Source: Candidatus Saccharimonadota bacterium (lineage in GTDB: Bacteria; Patescibacteriota; Saccharimonadia; Saccharimonadales; Saccharimonadaceae). Taken from it: 15,131 nt of DNA. Of this stretch, positions 5 to 14,124 are shown one piece after another. The notes under the pieces were generated by a model. The model had not been told where the DNA came from, made no database searches, and saw only the letters and a list, made by a program, of their open reading frames with translations. The position numbers and the translations under genes were made by a program. Positions within the stretch are counted from its first letter, which is position 1. Every line of letters starts with the position of its first letter. The stretch spans positions 1 through 15,131 of the forward strand of contig JAGCAL010000059.1 of NCBI GenBank assembly GCA_017652715.1, given 5' to 3'.

Positions 5-1207
5 CTAATAGATAAACATCGAATCTCCATAGCTCAGGAAATTGTATTTTTCTGCTATGGCGTGTTCATAAGCATTCTTTAGGTGATCCCAACCAGCAAA
101 AGCGGAAGCCAGCATAAGGACCGTAGATTTCGGGGCATGGAAGTTCGTTAAAAGCGCATCAACTATCTTAAATTCAAAGCCAGGATAAATAAATATATCA
201 TCTTCGCCCGAAGTCTTACCAGTTTTGGCATAGTATTCCAGAGTACGGGCGACAGTAGTACCAAGGGCAACGATACGTGGGCGAGAGTCACTAATGCTTT
301 CATTCCGGATCGCTTCGTCGCGCCTGTCGTTACAGGGCTCCTCGCTTCGTCCGCTCCCGTCGTCGCGGATGCTCCGGAATGAAACATTAGCTGACTCTCG
401 TTGTCGGCGTATGTTTTCGATTGCTTCCAGTGTATCCTTGGGGATTTGAAACCACTCCGAATGCATTTTGTGGTCTTCGATTTTATCGCAGCGAATTGGA
501 AGAAAGGTGCCGAGACCAACGTGTAACGTCAAATACTTGATAATAACGCCTTTTCTGCGAAGTTTTTCTAGTAATTCCTCGGTCATATTGAGACTAGCGG
601 TTGGCGCAGCGGCCGAACCCATTTCTTTCGCAAATACTGTTTGGTATCTAGCTTTATCTTCTTCTGTCGCATCACGATGTAAATAGGGCGGCAAGGGAAC
701 CGAACCAGAAGTTTCTGCGAGTTCGGCTAGTGGAATCTCCGATTCGACTTCGGCAATGCCATTACCGAGAATTGTAGTAATGGTGATAAATTTATTATCC
801 AATTCGAGGGAATCCGGAGCCTGGCAAGGCGAGGACGAGCGCGCGAGCCCCGTGGCGACGGGAGCGAGCGACGCGGCCCGAGAATGGATAATAAGTTTAT
901 CACCTTCATGCAATTTTCCGCGGTACATGACACGTTGGGGCTCATCGCCATGTTTTTCTAGGACGACTAGCTCGCGTTTTCGCCCATCGGGCAACTCGCA
1001 GAATAAACGTGACTTCATAACACGAGTATCGTTTAGAACTAAGACATCGCCGGGATTCAAAAAGTCAGCAAGGTCACGGTAATACGAGTCTTTAATATCA
1101 CCGGTTTTTCTATCTAGAACCAAGAGTCGCGTCGTTCCGCGTTGTTCGGGTGGAAACTTAGCGATACGCTCTTCTGGCAAATCGTAATTATAATCTGATA
1201 ATAGCAT
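5..1207 (-). CDS. queA: S-adenosylmethionine:tRNA ribosyltransferase-isomerase (QueA) carrying two in-frame insertions
   Basis: QueA transfers and isomerises the ribosyl part of SAM onto preQ1-tRNA to give epoxyqueuosine at the wobble base of GUN anticodons; it acts in the cytosol. The 400-residue product shows family hallmarks: LNDTRVMKSRL near residue 58, AAPTASLNMT near 200, LTLHVGLGTFLPI near 226, KMHSEWF near 247, ALGTTVARTLE near 314, and a C-terminal NFHAPKSTVLMLASAFAG near 355. Usual family length is about 340-350; the excess is two stretches with no family resemblance, roughly residues 107-139 and 266-309, which coincide with the GC-rich palindromic elements annotated separately. The frame is open throughout, so the gene is probably functional if the inserts sit in surface loops (inference). 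The start ATG lies 8 nt after an extended -10 box with no Shine-Dalgarno, suggesting a leaderless message. The neighbouring minus-strand queH of the same pathway is broken. Confidence 0.95.
   Translation of the reverse strand: MLLSDYNYDLPEERIAKFPPEQRGTTRLLVLDRKTGDIKDSYYRDLADFLNPGDVLVLNDTRVMKSRLFCELPDGRKRELVVLEKHGDEPQRVMYRGKLHEGDKLIIHSRAASLAPVATGLARSSSPCQAPDSLELDNKFITITTILGNGIAEVESEIPLAELAETSGSVPLPPYLHRDATEEDKARYQTVFAKEMGSAAAPTASLNMTEELLEKLRRKGVIIKYLTLHVGLGTFLPIRCDKIEDHKMHSEWFQIPKDTLEAIENIRRQRESANVSFRSIRDDGSGRSEEPCNDRRDEAIRNESISDSRPRIVALGTTVARTLEYYAKTGKTSGEDDIFIYPGFEFKIVDALLTNFHAPKSTVLMLASAFAGWDHLKNAYEHAIAEKYNFLSYGDSMFIY
282..400. repeat. GC-rich palindromic element, copy 1, inserted in frame in queA
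   Basis: Two 28-nt arms, 282-309 and 373-400, are near-perfect inverted repeats of each other; they differ by one inserted and one deleted base, and the inner 12 bases, ending in TTCCGGA, match exactly. They enclose a GC-rich core (310-372) in an otherwise AT-rich gene. The core holds a hairpin: CCTGT at 323-327, loop CGTT, ACAGG at 332-336. In the protein it adds about 40 residues between NIRRQR and RIVALGTT, positions that are adjacent in ordinary QueA proteins (family knowledge). The core resembles copy 2, read on the opposite strand. Confidence 0.85.
782..904. repeat. GC-rich palindromic element, copy 2, inserted in frame in queA
   Basis: Outer arms 782-800 and 886-904 are 19-nt inverted repeats with one mismatch; a weaker inner extension pairs 801-810 with 877-885. 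The GC-rich core contains the hairpin CCCGT (849-853), loop GGCG, ACGGG (858-862), flanked by sequence similar to the reverse complement of copy 1, including a shared TCCGGAGC. The outer arms differ in sequence from those of copy 1, but each copy is self-complementary. It adds roughly 30 residues to QueA around residues 107-139. Where the native gene ends and the arms begin cannot be fixed from this sequence alone. Confidence 0.8.
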
Positions 1208-1235: not shown

Positions 1236-3860
1236 CTATATATCAGAGATACAACGGATGGCCCCACCTGATGTCCTGAAGGTAGAATGAGTACCAGGAT
1301 ACGCATAACCTCCATGCCATACTCTTAGGTAAGGTGTATATCCTTCTGTGCCGGAGCCGGATAGATAATCACCATACCATCCTCTGTAATCGTTTTGGTG
1401 GTAGAAACTCCCGGATACTACGAAGTTATTCGGATAGGTTGTCCACAGAACTGATGATACCGCTGCGGTACCCTGACCATCATCTATGGCTTCATCTAAT
1501 TCTCGGAAGTCATTAGTGTTACCAACAAACGGTAATCGCCAACCCGTAGGACAAATTGAGGTTTTCGTTTCTTCAGCGCCACCTTCTCCGGTATTATTGA
1601 TGATTCTCGTGGTATTCGCTTTGGCGGCAGCCCAGCTATAGTAGTTACCATAGCTGTACCATCGATAGTAGTTGCCACTCATATTTCCATTTTCTACAGA
1701 AAAGCCAGGGTCATCAATAAGGCTCGAATCACTAAGCCTAGAGTTATTATTGTTATATCTAGGAAGTCTATTGACTAGATCGGCGCCAATAATGTTGCTG
1801 GAGCTATATAGACTGTTTGAATCAGTGGTACCATTAAAGCCGACAATTTCGGAATTTGCTAAACCAACGAATACACCTCCATATCCTTCGGATAGAGCAG
1901 CGTTGGCTTCTCCTCGTGTATTTTCCGCATCAAGCCTTAAGTTTTCTGTCATCCAGCACTTTCCGTCGGCGAGTTTTGCGACCGTGTAGGTATTATCGTC
2001 TCTTTGATCGGATAATGCTGTTATGTCGCCCACATTCATGCTAGAACAACCTTGCCATCCTTGTATAGAGCCTTCCGACGGGACCCAAACTGCGTACATA
2101 GTCGCAGAACGAGTCTGGTCAAAATGAAGTTCAGATTGTTCTATCATCTCATTAGGACCATAGATTACATCATTTCCACCCACCGTTGCATCAGGATTTT
2201 CGCTCCAACCAGCAAATCCGTATCCAGTTTTGTAATAATTTGGCGACGTCAGAAACGGATCGTCATTTTCTAATTCTTCGAAATAATCGAAGTTCGTGAT
2301 GAATCCATCCATTGTGCCTCCGGATTCTCCGTTGCCGTTGTAAAAGATTTTATAAGGATTATAAGCATCGATTGTGGTGACTTCTCCGGTATATACGCCA
2401 CTCTTAATATTAAGATACTCAATGATGTCGTCTTCAGTCATGAGTTGTTTGCCGCCATTATAGTCTTCTGGTGTCCACCCTCCGTACCATTCTACCGGAA
2501 TCTGATATTCGCCAGTAGCATTATCTTTCGAGTATGTACAAATTGATGTTTCGGTTGTGTTTTCCTCCTCTGTATCATAAATTGGATATAGCTCAACGTA
2601 GACACCGTATCTGTCATCTTCGGTACCTATCGAAGATGGCTCAAAGTACGAGAATTCGACAGTAACCTTATCTCCATAAAATACATATGTCCTTGTATCG
2701 GCTTCTACGGTTTTCGTAGTGTAAATTCTGTCGTGCGGAGCGTTCGGAGTAGGTCCATCGACTGACCATCCGCCCCAATCACCTTGGGTTATCAAAAGAT
2801 TAGTAATTGGAACGATACCGAATTTCATAACAGCCTTTACTCTACTAGCTCCTGGGAAGGATTTCGTTTCAAGAAGGCGTAAATAGTTTTCGTAGGCTTC
2901 ATTTTTGACACCATTGGTTAAATTCGGAGTCTCGATGATTGTCGGCGTGGTAGCAATATACATGCTACCGCAATCACCTTGATAAGTGCGACGATTTAAT
3001 TCAGAAGTGTCCGCAAAAGTAAGATCATTGCCGTAATAAACTAGGCCAGTCTCAGTATCATCTACCGGTGAATACGGGTCAAAGTTAGCGATAGCGACAT
3101 AAGTAATAGTAGCTCCCGTATAAGAACCATACGGTAAGTCAGGTGTAACGAAGGTTCCGTAGTATAGAGCAGTTTCGTCGTCAGCTTCAGTAGCAGAGGT
3201 TGCTTCTTTTAGCAATGTTGGATTAGTTGAATCGGTTGAAAGTCCGATGAAGCTAGCGGATTCTTGGCTTTCCGGCAGCGTAGTAGCGACACCCCAAGTA
3301 TTATCGGAAAGTCCGGAAGGAGTAGACTTATTTAAGCTCGCAATTTTTTTACTACTGCCAGACGCTGCTAGATCCGGATTCGTGACATAAGCGGATAATG
3401 TATAGCCGGTAGTAGTCGGGGTATCAACCTTTACGGTGTCCTCGACAAATTTAAATACGGATTGGTCGCTTAATTCAACATCCATAACGATATCTTCGGT
3501 AGTAATCGAAAGAGTGTCTTCGTTTGAGTCTGTTGCGTTGACTGATTTATCATCGTACTGACCTTCTAGAGCATGGAAGGATAAGGCAGAGAATAGTATC
3601 GCCAGAACAACAAGGACCTTCGGCAACCACCTGCTTCGACCAGCTACAATTTCAACATTGTGCTTTTTCATGAATGCTATAATAGCAAACACTATTATAA
3701 TAGTAGCGATCGCTACCGTACCTATTGCTGCTGGTCCATTAGTCGAGAAATCGGAACTCGACGTCATAAAACCGGTATTTGCTGCGGATGCAGATTGATC
3801 CGCTGAATTGTCTGGTGCCGGCGCAGTCCGGTCCACGACATGTATAGTCATTTGACTCAT
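1236..3860 (-). CDS. membrane-anchored surface protein: InlB-like repeat and C-terminal FISUMP domain
   Basis: Predicted product 874 residues, function unknown, probably displayed on the cell surface. The start chosen is the ATG at 3860, which has a GGAGG six bases upstream; an ATG at 3884 in the same frame has none and lies inside a predicted hairpin. Order: polar tail 1-43 with ANTGF near 27-31; hydrophobic helix about 44-63; basic loop with KK and RSR; second helix about 79-97; an Ig-like, beta-rich region about 142-260 resembling that of the other large surface protein in the window; an unrecognised region about 282-492; an InlB/Listeria-Bacteroides-type repeat about 504-593 (YNGNG, GYGFAGW, MYAVW); and a FISUMP-type domain from about 605 (DGKCWMTENLRLD, SICPTGWRLP, terminal IRCI) with four cysteines at 605, 635, 770 and 870. 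The positive-inside rule predicts both ends outside the membrane. The InlB-like and FISUMP assignments are confident; the role is not known. Confidence 0.85.
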   Translation of the reverse strand: MSQMTIHVVDRTAPAPDNSADQSASAANTGFMTSSSDFSTNGPAAIGTVAIATIIIVFAIIAFMKKHNVEIVAGRSRWLPKVLVVLAILFSALSFHALEGQYDDKSVNATDSNEDTLSITTEDIVMDVELSDQSVFKFVEDTVKVDTPTTTGYTLSAYVTNPDLAASGSSKKIASLNKSTPSGLSDNTWGVATTLPESQESASFIGLSTDSTNPTLLKEATSATEADDETALYYGTFVTPDLPYGSYTGATITYVAIANFDPYSPVDDTETGLVYYGNDLTFADTSELNRRTYQGDCGSMYIATTPTIIETPNLTNGVKNEAYENYLRLLETKSFPGASRVKAVMKFGIVPITNLLITQGDWGGWSVDGPTPNAPHDRIYTTKTVEADTRTYVFYGDKVTVEFSYFEPSSIGTEDDRYGVYVELYPIYDTEEENTTETSICTYSKDNATGEYQIPVEWYGGWTPEDYNGGKQLMTEDDIIEYLNIKSGVYTGEVTTIDAYNPYKIFYNGNGESGGTMDGFITNFDYFEELENDDPFLTSPNYYKTGYGFAGWSENPDATVGGNDVIYGPNEMIEQSELHFDQTRSATMYAVWVPSEGSIQGWQGCSSMNVGDITALSDQRDDNTYTVAKLADGKCWMTENLRLDAENTRGEANAALSEGYGGVFVGLANSEIVGFNGTTDSNSLYSSSNIIGADLVNRLPRYNNNNSRLSDSSLIDDPGFSVENGNMSGNYYRWYSYGNYYSWAAAKANTTRIINNTGEGGAEETKTSICPTGWRLPFVGNTNDFRELDEAIDDGQGTAAVSSVLWTTYPNNFVVSGSFYHQNDYRGWYGDYLSGSGTEGYTPYLRVWHGGYAYPGTHSTFRTSGGAIRCISDI

Positions 3861-3866
3861 TTTTTT

Positions 3867-3906
3867 CCTCCACTTTAAGGTCATTTAAGATATCATAAAC
3901 AACCTT
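3867..3906 (-). promoter_or_regulatory. 5'-leader hairpin next to the Shine-Dalgarno of the membrane-anchored FISUMP gene
   Basis: Positions 3877-3906 can form an 11-bp stem (two G-U pairs, eight-base loop) in the minus-strand transcript. The stem ends five bases before the GGAGG at 3867-3871, which lies six bases before the ATG at 3860. This is the only long leader seen among the well-defined promoters in the window. Whether the hairpin regulates translation is inference. Confidence 0.4.
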
Positions 3907-12303: not shown

Positions 12304-14124
12304 TTAACGAACACACCTAATCGTGGCAGCTTCGTCTTTCGTCGCACTATAAGTACCAGGATAAGCATACGAGGAGATCGAAAGCATAAGTGAAGTCATG
12401 GAGTTATTTCCCGTACTGGACCAGAAATAACCTGAAGAGCCGACCTCGGGAACGATCATTTGTCTGTGGCTACCGGAGACCATAAAGTTGTTTGGGTAAT
12501 CTCTGAAAGCAGCCACGGCAGTCTTATTATTTGCATTTGTTTCCGAATCTTGATAATAACTATTATTAGCCGGAGCAAACCCCATAATATTAACCCCGAG
12601 AGACCAGAGCTCACTATTCGCCGCATTATCCGAGTTGCCACCCTTTGGCAAATGCCAGCCATATGGGCAGATGGACGTCGTGGTAATAGATTGGTTAAGG
12701 GTATTATAGTAGGATGTATCCGCAATGGCGGCTGCCCAAGTGTAATAATTGCCTACGGAATATATACGAGAGGTGGTATTACTCCAGCTAGTCATATTGG
12801 CGACAGGACTTGCTGTATGCCGATTATCGTAGCGCGGAAAACGATAGGCGACGCCATTTCCTGAAATCGTAAACGCCGTAGAACCATCTGTGCTATATAG
12901 ACTGTTAGCTGTAGTGCCACTAATATTTCCAGTTTCCGGATCGGCTAATCCGATAAAGCTAGAATTATAGCCTTGCGCTAAGGTTCCGTCTGAGTTATGC
13001 GCTGCGGTATTGTCTAGTCTTAGGTTTTCTACCATCCAACATTTACCATCTTTTAGTTTAGCGACGGCGTAGACGTTATTGTCCCTTTGGTCTCTTAGTG
13101 CGGTCATTGTACCTATCGGCATAGTAGAGTTGTTTGGACAGGTAAAGCTCTGAAGATCGCCGGCACTCGGTACCCAGACAGCGTAAAGAGCGAGACCTGG
13201 GTTAGAACCAGAATACTCTCCATTGGGGAAAGTAAGTATAGTATTAGGACCGTAGATATGATAACCAGCATTAACGCCAGTTCCATTCCCGTCCACATCG
13301 TTCTCGTTTAAGACCCAGTCATATTTGTCAGACCAGCCGGCAAAGCCGTAGCCTGAGAGTTGAAAGTTAGAGCCCCAAAGTTCAGCACGTTGCCATTGGG
13401 CGTTTATTTCTTGATTACTCATAGTAGTGGGTGAATTAGCTCCGCTATCACTATAGCAAATGTAGCCAGATGGACAGGATATAGGAGCTGGGGTTGGGAC
13501 GGGATTTGCTACGGCAATGAAGTTAATGACGTTGTTATAGGTTCCGGAGAGTTGGTCACCAGAGGCTTTAGCGGCGATTTTGAACTTAATAGAATCGCCA
13601 GATGCTGAAGAGACTGGATCGTTAGAAGATTTTAATGTGGCTATATTTGTTTCATCATCGTAGAGAGGAAGACCGTCATAGTTAGTCCAAGTAGTATTAG
13701 TACCATTATTTAGGCTTTCGTCTAGGTATGAGTAGGCCCAAGTGTTGTTTTCTAGGTTAGTATTACTAGCAATACTGGAGCCGAAGGCTACAGAAGTAAA
13801 TTTGTTAGAAATGTTACTATCGTTATGTTTTAGGTCTCTAGTTGTATAAGTTGTACTGTTACCTACGGTAGCGTTTAATGTGTAGCCTGCAACGCTATTA
13901 GTTAAAACACTTACCGTAATAATGTTACTATCGTCCGAAGTGCCCGGAGCAAGGTTGGGAATAACAAGATTAGAAGAAGAGAGGTTGATTTGGATGGAAG
14001 GGTTAAAAGTAAAAGAGACGCCAATGTCTTGAGAGAAGGTTACGGCGTGAGTTAGGTTAGTAGTACTAAGACTAAGGAGAGTTAAACTTAACAATAAAAT
14101 TAAAGATTTTGTATGACGTTTCAT
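12304..14124 (-). CDS. secreted surface protein: InlB-like region and C-terminal FISUMP domain
   Basis: A 606-residue exported protein of unknown function. A Sec signal peptide is clear: MKR, a leucine-rich core, then a likely signal peptidase I site after THA (residue 27). The mature part starts with a beta-rich Ig-like region (about 28-207, Asn/Thr/Ser-rich), a PVPTPAP hinge, an InlB-like segment with GYGFAGWSD near 258 and LYAVWVPSAG near 313, then a FISUMP-type domain (about 329-606) with RDQRDNN, DGKCWMVENLRLD and SICPYGWHLP. Cysteines at 329, 362, 486 and 604 match those of the other FISUMP protein in the window. It lacks the middle region and double membrane anchor of that paralog, and has no sorting motif at its C-terminus. 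The ATG sits six bases after TGCTATAAT with no Shine-Dalgarno, so a leaderless message is predicted. Adhesion or substrate binding is plausible but unproven. Confidence 0.88.
   Translation of the reverse strand: MKRHTKSLILLLSLTLLSLSTTNLTHAVTFSQDIGVSFTFNPSIQINLSSSNLVIPNLAPGTSDDSNIITVSVLTNSVAGYTLNATVGNSTTYTTRDLKHNDSNISNKFTSVAFGSSIASNTNLENNTWAYSYLDESLNNGTNTTWTNYDGLPLYDDETNIATLKSSNDPVSSASGDSIKFKIAAKASGDQLSGTYNNVINFIAVANPVPTPAPISCPSGYICYSDSGANSPTTMSNQEINAQWQRAELWGSNFQLSGYGFAGWSDKYDWVLNENDVDGNGTGVNAGYHIYGPNTILTFPNGEYSGSNPGLALYAVWVPSAGDLQSFTCPNNSTMPIGTMTALRDQRDNNVYAVAKLKDGKCWMVENLRLDNTAAHNSDGTLAQGYNSSFIGLADPETGNISGTTANSLYSTDGSTAFTISGNGVAYRFPRYDNRHTASPVANMTSWSNTTSRIYSVGNYYTWAAAIADTSYYNTLNQSITTTSICPYGWHLPKGGNSDNAANSELWSLGVNIMGFAPANNSYYQDSETNANNKTAVAAFRDYPNNFMVSGSHRQMIVPEVGSSGYFWSSTGNNSMTSLMLSISSYAYPGTYSATKDEAATIRCVR

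Follow-up and report, generated by a model that had tools for sequence, protein, structure and literature searches.

Two in-frame inserts in queA belong to a dispersed hairpin family of Saccharibacteria with arms private to each site

The window considered here is a 15,131-nucleotide stretch of a Candidatus Saccharimonadota genome (contig JAGCAL010000059.1 of assembly GCA_017652715.1). Its queA gene carries two GC-rich inserts, A and B, in opposite orientations, and both are copies of one element dispersed through the genome and the genus. Each copy combines a conserved core with two flanking arms that pair with each other over about 22 positions and are private to their site. The interpretation slightly favoured is that of a dispersed, translated mobile hairpin element of Saccharibacteria, similar in effect to the Rickettsia palindromic elements (RPEs) without belonging to that family. 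A more specific proposal, advanced tentatively, is that of a new class of mobile DNA, in which the shape of a short hairpin, folded as a single strand, would be what is recognised. Insertion would take place at the replication fork in a fixed polarity, the recognition stem (two helical turns, bulged at fixed positions) would be built from host DNA at each new site, and the copies would be tolerated through translation as protein loops.

The source genome is an assembly of 640 kb in 100 contigs, 79% complete. A preliminary description of the window had proposed that two palindromic elements were inserted in frame in queA, adding about 30 and 40 residues, and both points hold. The 400-aa frame is intact, the model R1 presented below matches insert A on the minus strand and insert B on the plus strand (Table 1), and the additions amount to 29 residues for insert B, relative to relatives, and 38 for insert A, relative to the solved QueA 1YY3. 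In the latter, residues 269-306 have no counterpart and the aligned stretches join at residue 248, while the site of insert B spans 42 aa against 13 aa in the insert-free relatives (L039-L043, L025). In relatives, these two sites hold inserts of another kind or are empty. The extra segments are thus missing from solved QueA proteins and from some relatives, and do not behave as ordinary protein loops. Folded as RNA, inserts A and B each outperform all 200 shuffles (z -6.25 and -5.17). Besides the cores, long inverted repeats frame the inserts (282-309/373-400 and 782-801/885-904), with a sequence that differs between the two copies; these outer repeats and the genome-wide family go beyond what had been described. 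The window gives no Rfam match at gathering score, and its part 240-950 gives none at E ≤ 1.

First further copies were obtained by Blast of the inserts against their own genome, and the copy census rests on searches. Twenty copies were aligned to build the model R1, which yields 22 matches at E ≤ 1 in the 640-kb genome, 19 of them with E ≤ 2e-4. The core recognised earlier as alignable between the two inserts therefore recurs well beyond queA, as the core of one dispersed element. R1 matches are found in 58 of 60 genomes of the same genus, with up to 34 copies per genome, in 46 of 199 genomes of the family, corresponding to 14 of the 61 sampled genera, and in 3 of 286 genomes drawn across the phylum, all three from the same genus; copy counts in these large sets are lower bounds, because stricter filters were used for scoring. 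Over species genomes, a core pattern occurs in at least 118 stretches. The 80 listed all come from Candidatus Saccharibacteria, many of them from ruminant guts, and these named loci lean to one core type because they were picked by an exact 23-base pattern. No exact match to one core pattern was found in viral contigs.

The core is GC-rich, conserved and mostly 71-80 nt long, and longer variants exist. A variant of 127-128 nt with extra sequence in its central part was seen in the own genome, at L052, L053, L056 and L058. Compensatory change in the central hairpin, first remarked on between the two inserts, extends to the family, as four of the seven predicted pairs are altered on both sides across the 20 aligned copies. 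The main set comprises 121 copies, of which 103 come from named loci (106 matches less three partial ones) and 18 from the own genome (the 19 at E ≤ 2e-4 less one partial, the three weaker matches being uncounted). A hold-out set was assembled by hand from 25 of 29 new genus loci (without L091-L094), 11 further loci of genome G026 and 24 of 27 matches of another search. It excludes the five loci of genome G010, counts three other loci through the latter search, and retains 54 of 60 copies after removal of six repeats. Copies, genomes and orthologous pairs are non-independent throughout.

Most copies lie inside genes. Indeed, 110 of the 121 stand in a frame that crosses the element without a stop and has 100 or more flanking codons, a count unfit as a test of translation because these frames were chosen for having no stop. 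A fairer test uses the longest open run on each side, chosen without regard to the element. Where both runs reach at least 100 codons, 68 of 69 copies join them in one shared, stop-free frame (27 of 31 in the hold-out). With runs of at least 60 codons, the frame is the same in 88 of 98 copies (hold-out 38 of 44); in the remaining ones the runs lie on opposite strands or in other frames, and none shows a stop within a shared frame. As a control for composition, the other same-strand frames that cross the element were considered, and 149 of 220 contain a stop. All six reading frames are used by the 110 copies (39, 29, 15, 13, 12 and 2), so that no common peptide exists. Host frames include, by Pfam name, Obg, FemAB, GyrA, LeuS, P-type ATPase, PolA, Tgt, PepN, ValS and QueA. 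In valS (L003/L063), a short degraded copy was noticed (E 0.065), as well as a second small insert-like stretch nearer the start with a similar peptide, RESTISS by eye.

When the two flanks of each copy are aligned outward from the core, mean pairing is about 0.86 over positions 1-22 and then falls to about 0.55, whereas swapped partners, taken as control, stay near 0.5 except at positions 2-3 beside the core. The arms of 112 of 120 copies exceed the 99th percentile of this control, and in the hold-out 49 of 54 are above the threshold, with the step at 20-22. Arm length remains 20-22 irrespective of inserted length (93 copies in three classes). For 850 pairs of copies at different sites with core identity of at least 0.85, arm identity is 0.61 against a background of 0.59. 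Such near-identical cores with unrelated arms imply that the arms are not carried along with the core. A weak sequence preference is present in the arms. Pairing is similar in every class of core similarity (0.82-0.86). In Obg and TrmD (the latter named by eye), relatives with an empty site have a short native loop, and in the filled genes one arm continues, by eye, the native sequence while the other arm is extra. Among 14 orthologous pairs, 24 double changes retain a base pair, 16 exchange a pair for a wobble or the reverse, and 21 positions are mismatched in both members; 425 of 616 positions are paired with their own arms against 385 when arms are swapped between orthologs.

The arms also differ from each other in a strand-specific manner. 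On the element strand, GT mismatches outnumber AC mismatches by 94 to 41, with 83 to 38 among coding copies and 11 to 3 among the rest, and by 46 to 15 in the hold-out. On the sense strand of the host gene, GU (61) equals AC (60), and selection on the arms at the mRNA level is thus not seen. The earlier idea of selection on DNA or RNA structure can thereby be narrowed, in favour of the element's own strand. Of 121 copies, 68 carry an extra base, in 66 of them a purine, between positions 11 and 16 of the 5' arm; in the 3' arm, the mirror zone has one in 4 copies. The same bias is found in antisense copies (17 of 27 against 0), non-coding copies (4 of 11 against 1), copies of the hold-out (27 of 54 against 2) and those from other genera (9 of 19 against 0). 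A second extra base lies at positions 6-9 of the 3' arm, in 31 of 121 copies of the main set (against 6) and in 17 of 54 of the hold-out (against 5). Both bulges are present by eye in insert A. Simulated indel-free arms give 0 and 5 gap calls, against 179 and 129 observed in 174 copies.

Measured on the element strand, the flanks of 103 of 120 copies have a negative GC skew, a figure made up of 68 of 83 sense, 25 of 26 antisense and 10 of 11 non-coding copies; in the hold-out the same is seen in 40 of 54. Among the genus matches listed, 46 of 56 pairs of neighbours on one contig lie on a common strand, and the skew shows no relation to gene strand (92 regions, rho 0.05). Element orientation follows regional GC skew, not the gene.

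Table 1. Coordinates in the window of queA, its two inserts and their parts (arms named on the element strand).
Feature	Position	Strand	Evidence or remark
queA, intact 400-aa frame carrying both inserts	5-1207	minus	Pfam Queuosine_synth, E 5.7e-108
Insert A, R1 match	296-386	minus	E 2.6e-16
Insert A, conserved core, 73 nt	305..377	minus	R1 match minus 9 nt at each end
Insert A, 5' arm	378..399	minus	inverted repeat I1; bulged G at window 391 by eye
Insert A, 3' arm	283..304	minus	inverted repeat I1; second extra base at window 297 by eye
Insert A, central hairpin CCTGT-AACG-ACAGG	323..336	minus	
QueA codons 269-306, no counterpart in QueA 1YY3	290..403	minus	
Insert B, R1 match	797-890	plus	E 1.5e-16
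Insert B, conserved core, 76 nt	806..881	plus	
Insert B, 5' arm	784..805	plus	inverted repeat I4
Insert B, 3' arm	882..903	plus	inverted repeat I4
Insert B, central hairpin CCCGT-GGCG-ACGGG	849..862	plus	
QueA codons 108-136, 29 residues beyond empty relatives	800..886	minus	exact edges by eye

A second GC-rich palindromic family, recognised by eye and with ends like GGACGGGTG...CAGGACCCGTCC, occurs at the same places in relatives; it was seen at the second QueA site of L018, L019, L020 and L033 and in obg of L268. In genus g53 of the same taxonomic family, six copies of the element were seen (L280-L284), none in a frame longer than 111 aa; several of these copies have similar arms that look by eye like terminator stems. 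Elsewhere in the window, two large proteins encoded at 1236-3884 and 12304-14124 have C-terminal parts that are similar by eye, and they are perhaps surface proteins of one paralogous family.

The data on shape, strand and orientation point to the recognition of one folded DNA strand. The early suggestion of a non-autonomous mobile palindromic element tolerated in proteins, comparable to RPEs in another lineage, is supported, mobility being inferred from near-identical cores at unrelated sites and from orthologous sites that are filled or empty. In the mechanism proposed here, a single folded DNA strand would be the form in which the element moves or is recognised, with the replication fork as the probable place, and the recognising protein may read shape (stem length, bulges, GA mismatches and apical hairpin) more than sequence. 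New insertions would persist only where frame and fold survive and would therefore concentrate in loops that tolerate them, of which QueA offers two. In the least certain steps, insertion itself might create complementarity in the adjoining host DNA, along some two helical turns, and compensatory change or template switching might later uphold the pairing.

Two other origins of the arms were considered and set aside. Inverted copying of one flank fits Obg and part of TrmD by eye, but the wider set has native residues on both sides. Slow build-up by selection predicts better pairing in older copies, and none is seen (rho 0.09, p 0.26), core identity being a doubtful age clock here as cores are conserved in orthologs too. 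G026 and G010 were rejected as a pair of near strains: the G010 bin looks mixed, because it shows two queA places and regions of about 69% and about 92% identity to G026. In a wider search for near strains, the listed matches besides the query genome have 67-80% nucleotide identity, 38 of 174 genomes being unscored.

Several observations weigh against the favoured interpretation. Regarding the arms, eight of 120 copies fall below the threshold, and copies from other genera (n = 19), of similar arm length, pass it in 9 cases. Native residues flank the core on both sides at many of 35 sites, and inserted length minus core has a median of 28.5 nt with a range of -16 to 74 over 64 sites. Copies with cores nearly identical to others already have imperfect arms (mean 0.86), where simple copying predicts otherwise. 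In the 14 orthologous pairs, the changes that break or restore a pair (31) exceed the 24 compensated ones, in an ungapped register disturbed by bulges, and in roughly one copy out of two the bulges are missing or escaped detection. The core is more conserved than the coding flanks in orthologs (0.89 against 0.75 on average over 16 pairs selected by arm similarity, though not in every pair), which is unlike a decaying selfish copy and would be compatible with a host function or with conversion between copies. Insert B itself is an exception to the orientation rule, lying on the positive-skew strand, and the skew is not tied to a mapped origin. Finally, no enzyme was found among the three families counted, namely Y1, RVT_1 and tyrosine recombinase. 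Y1 transposase occurs in 2 of 60 same-genus genomes and not in the own genome. Diversity-generating retroelements are common in this group, and 39 of the 60 reduced genomes have reverse transcriptase matches, many of them within frames some 380-390 aa long; such matches are absent from the near-complete, copy-rich G003, G026, G036 and G055 (15-28 copies each). As general partners, both Y1 transposase and reverse transcriptase were rejected, since they are missing from copy-bearing genomes. Tyrosine recombinase gives one match in 32 genomes, more in 26 and none in 2, one without a match being G028, 97% complete and with 7 element copies.

Some of these points would suit a chromosomal site kept by the host, such as a polar signal for replication, repair or segregation that acts as a folded single strand with a stem of two helical turns. 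Orientation relative to GC skew, average core conservation above the coding flanks, compensatory arm changes together with strand-specific bulges, and the scarcity of Y1 transposase are all in line with this explanation, which is nevertheless considered unlikely, as presence is patchy (14 of 61 sampled family genera, with no match in 2 of 60 genus genomes), sites vary between species and orthologs are often empty.

A protein-coding palindromic or miniature inverted-repeat transposable element (MITE)-like element of the ordinary kind, whose long inverted ends would be its own fast-evolving ends, is judged quite improbable. Indeed, even where cores at different sites are 99-100% identical, the similarity of their arms does not exceed the background, and Obg and TrmD each show an arm made in part of host sequence found in empty relatives, whereas in-frame insertion in many genes, the weak sequence preference in the arms and an inserted length often exceeding the core would be expected of such an element.

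Insertion only into palindromes already present could explain why, at several sites, the core has native residues to either side, and the empty queA site of L040 is palindromic by eye. However, the palindromy score of 259 empty orthologous sites (4.88), taken from diverged relatives and not from a pre-insertion strain, is no higher than that of 1500 random places (4.91), against 12.13 for 165 filled flanks, which makes this explanation very unlikely. The strong RNA folding could reflect a hairpin acting in mRNA, for example an RNase III site or a translational bypass element such as those known as byps in mitochondria. This is highly improbable given the stop-free frame kept in 68 of 69 testable copies, the equality of GU and AC on the sense strand and the bulge geometry shared by antisense copies. 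Repetitive extragenic palindromic (REP)-like elements moved by a REP-associated tyrosine transposase (RAYT), which entail a Y1 transposase in the genome, would match the GC-rich dispersed hairpins and the recognition of one strand but are scarcely credible, with Y1 in 2 of 60 genomes, none in the own genome and most copies in open frames.

Among known systems, the nearest recognition mode, by analogy, is that of the integron attC sites, described as one folded strand recognised through extrahelical bases (PMC3053210). According to the portion of that source considered, these bases lie on one side, whereas the extra bases of the Saccharibacteria element lie on opposite arms. No cassette or integron integrase is shown for the element, and the tyrosine recombinases of 58 of 60 genomes were scored as a general family in which an integron integrase is not distinguished.

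RPEs are described, in the part of the source considered, as short palindromic elements in frame in many unrelated genes of a small genome (PMC10969869). The Saccharibacteria element shares this location inside many unrelated genes but belongs to another phylum, all listed records (80 of at least 118 stretches) being from Candidatus Saccharibacteria. It uses six frames and lacks the conserved peptide. In RPEs, the palindromic arms belong to the element, whereas the arms described here are private to the site and unrelated between near-identical cores; they also carry strand-specific bulges, and orientation is tied to GC skew. RPEs lose repeat identity over time, as stated in the relevant passage of PMC6649704, while the present arms are equally paired in all core-similarity classes. 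Membership of the RPE family therefore fails on lineage, peptide and arms.

The same source (PMC6649704) describes coding inverted repeats in mitochondrial genes of Nematomorpha, in which both arms encode protein; these palindromes are nearly all perfect and no common inserted core is mentioned there, whereas the arms in Saccharibacteria are imperfect, with bulges at set places around a conserved core. It also presents mitochondrial bypassing elements as palindromic sequences that interrupt coding sequence and stay untranslated (PMC6649704). REPs, in the part of PMC3733652 considered, are extragenic and 20-40 bp long; the element resembles them as a dispersed hairpin and departs from them in the near absence of Y1 from its genomes. 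Unlike the bypassing elements, it keeps an open frame, with no stop in 68 + 27 same-frame cases.

Protein-coding palindromic elements are best known from Rickettsia, and among the open-access papers listed none deals with such elements in Saccharibacteria. The present family makes them abundant in an unrelated lineage of reduced bacteria, within core genes such as obg, gyrA, polA and leuS. To our knowledge, private bulged stems of about 22 bp are predicted by no model of transposition, and they offer a handle on how such elements move, which is believed to be an open question. By adding peptide loops to enzymes across the genus, the element makes insertional protein evolution measurable, and its copies may mislead annotation and structure prediction.
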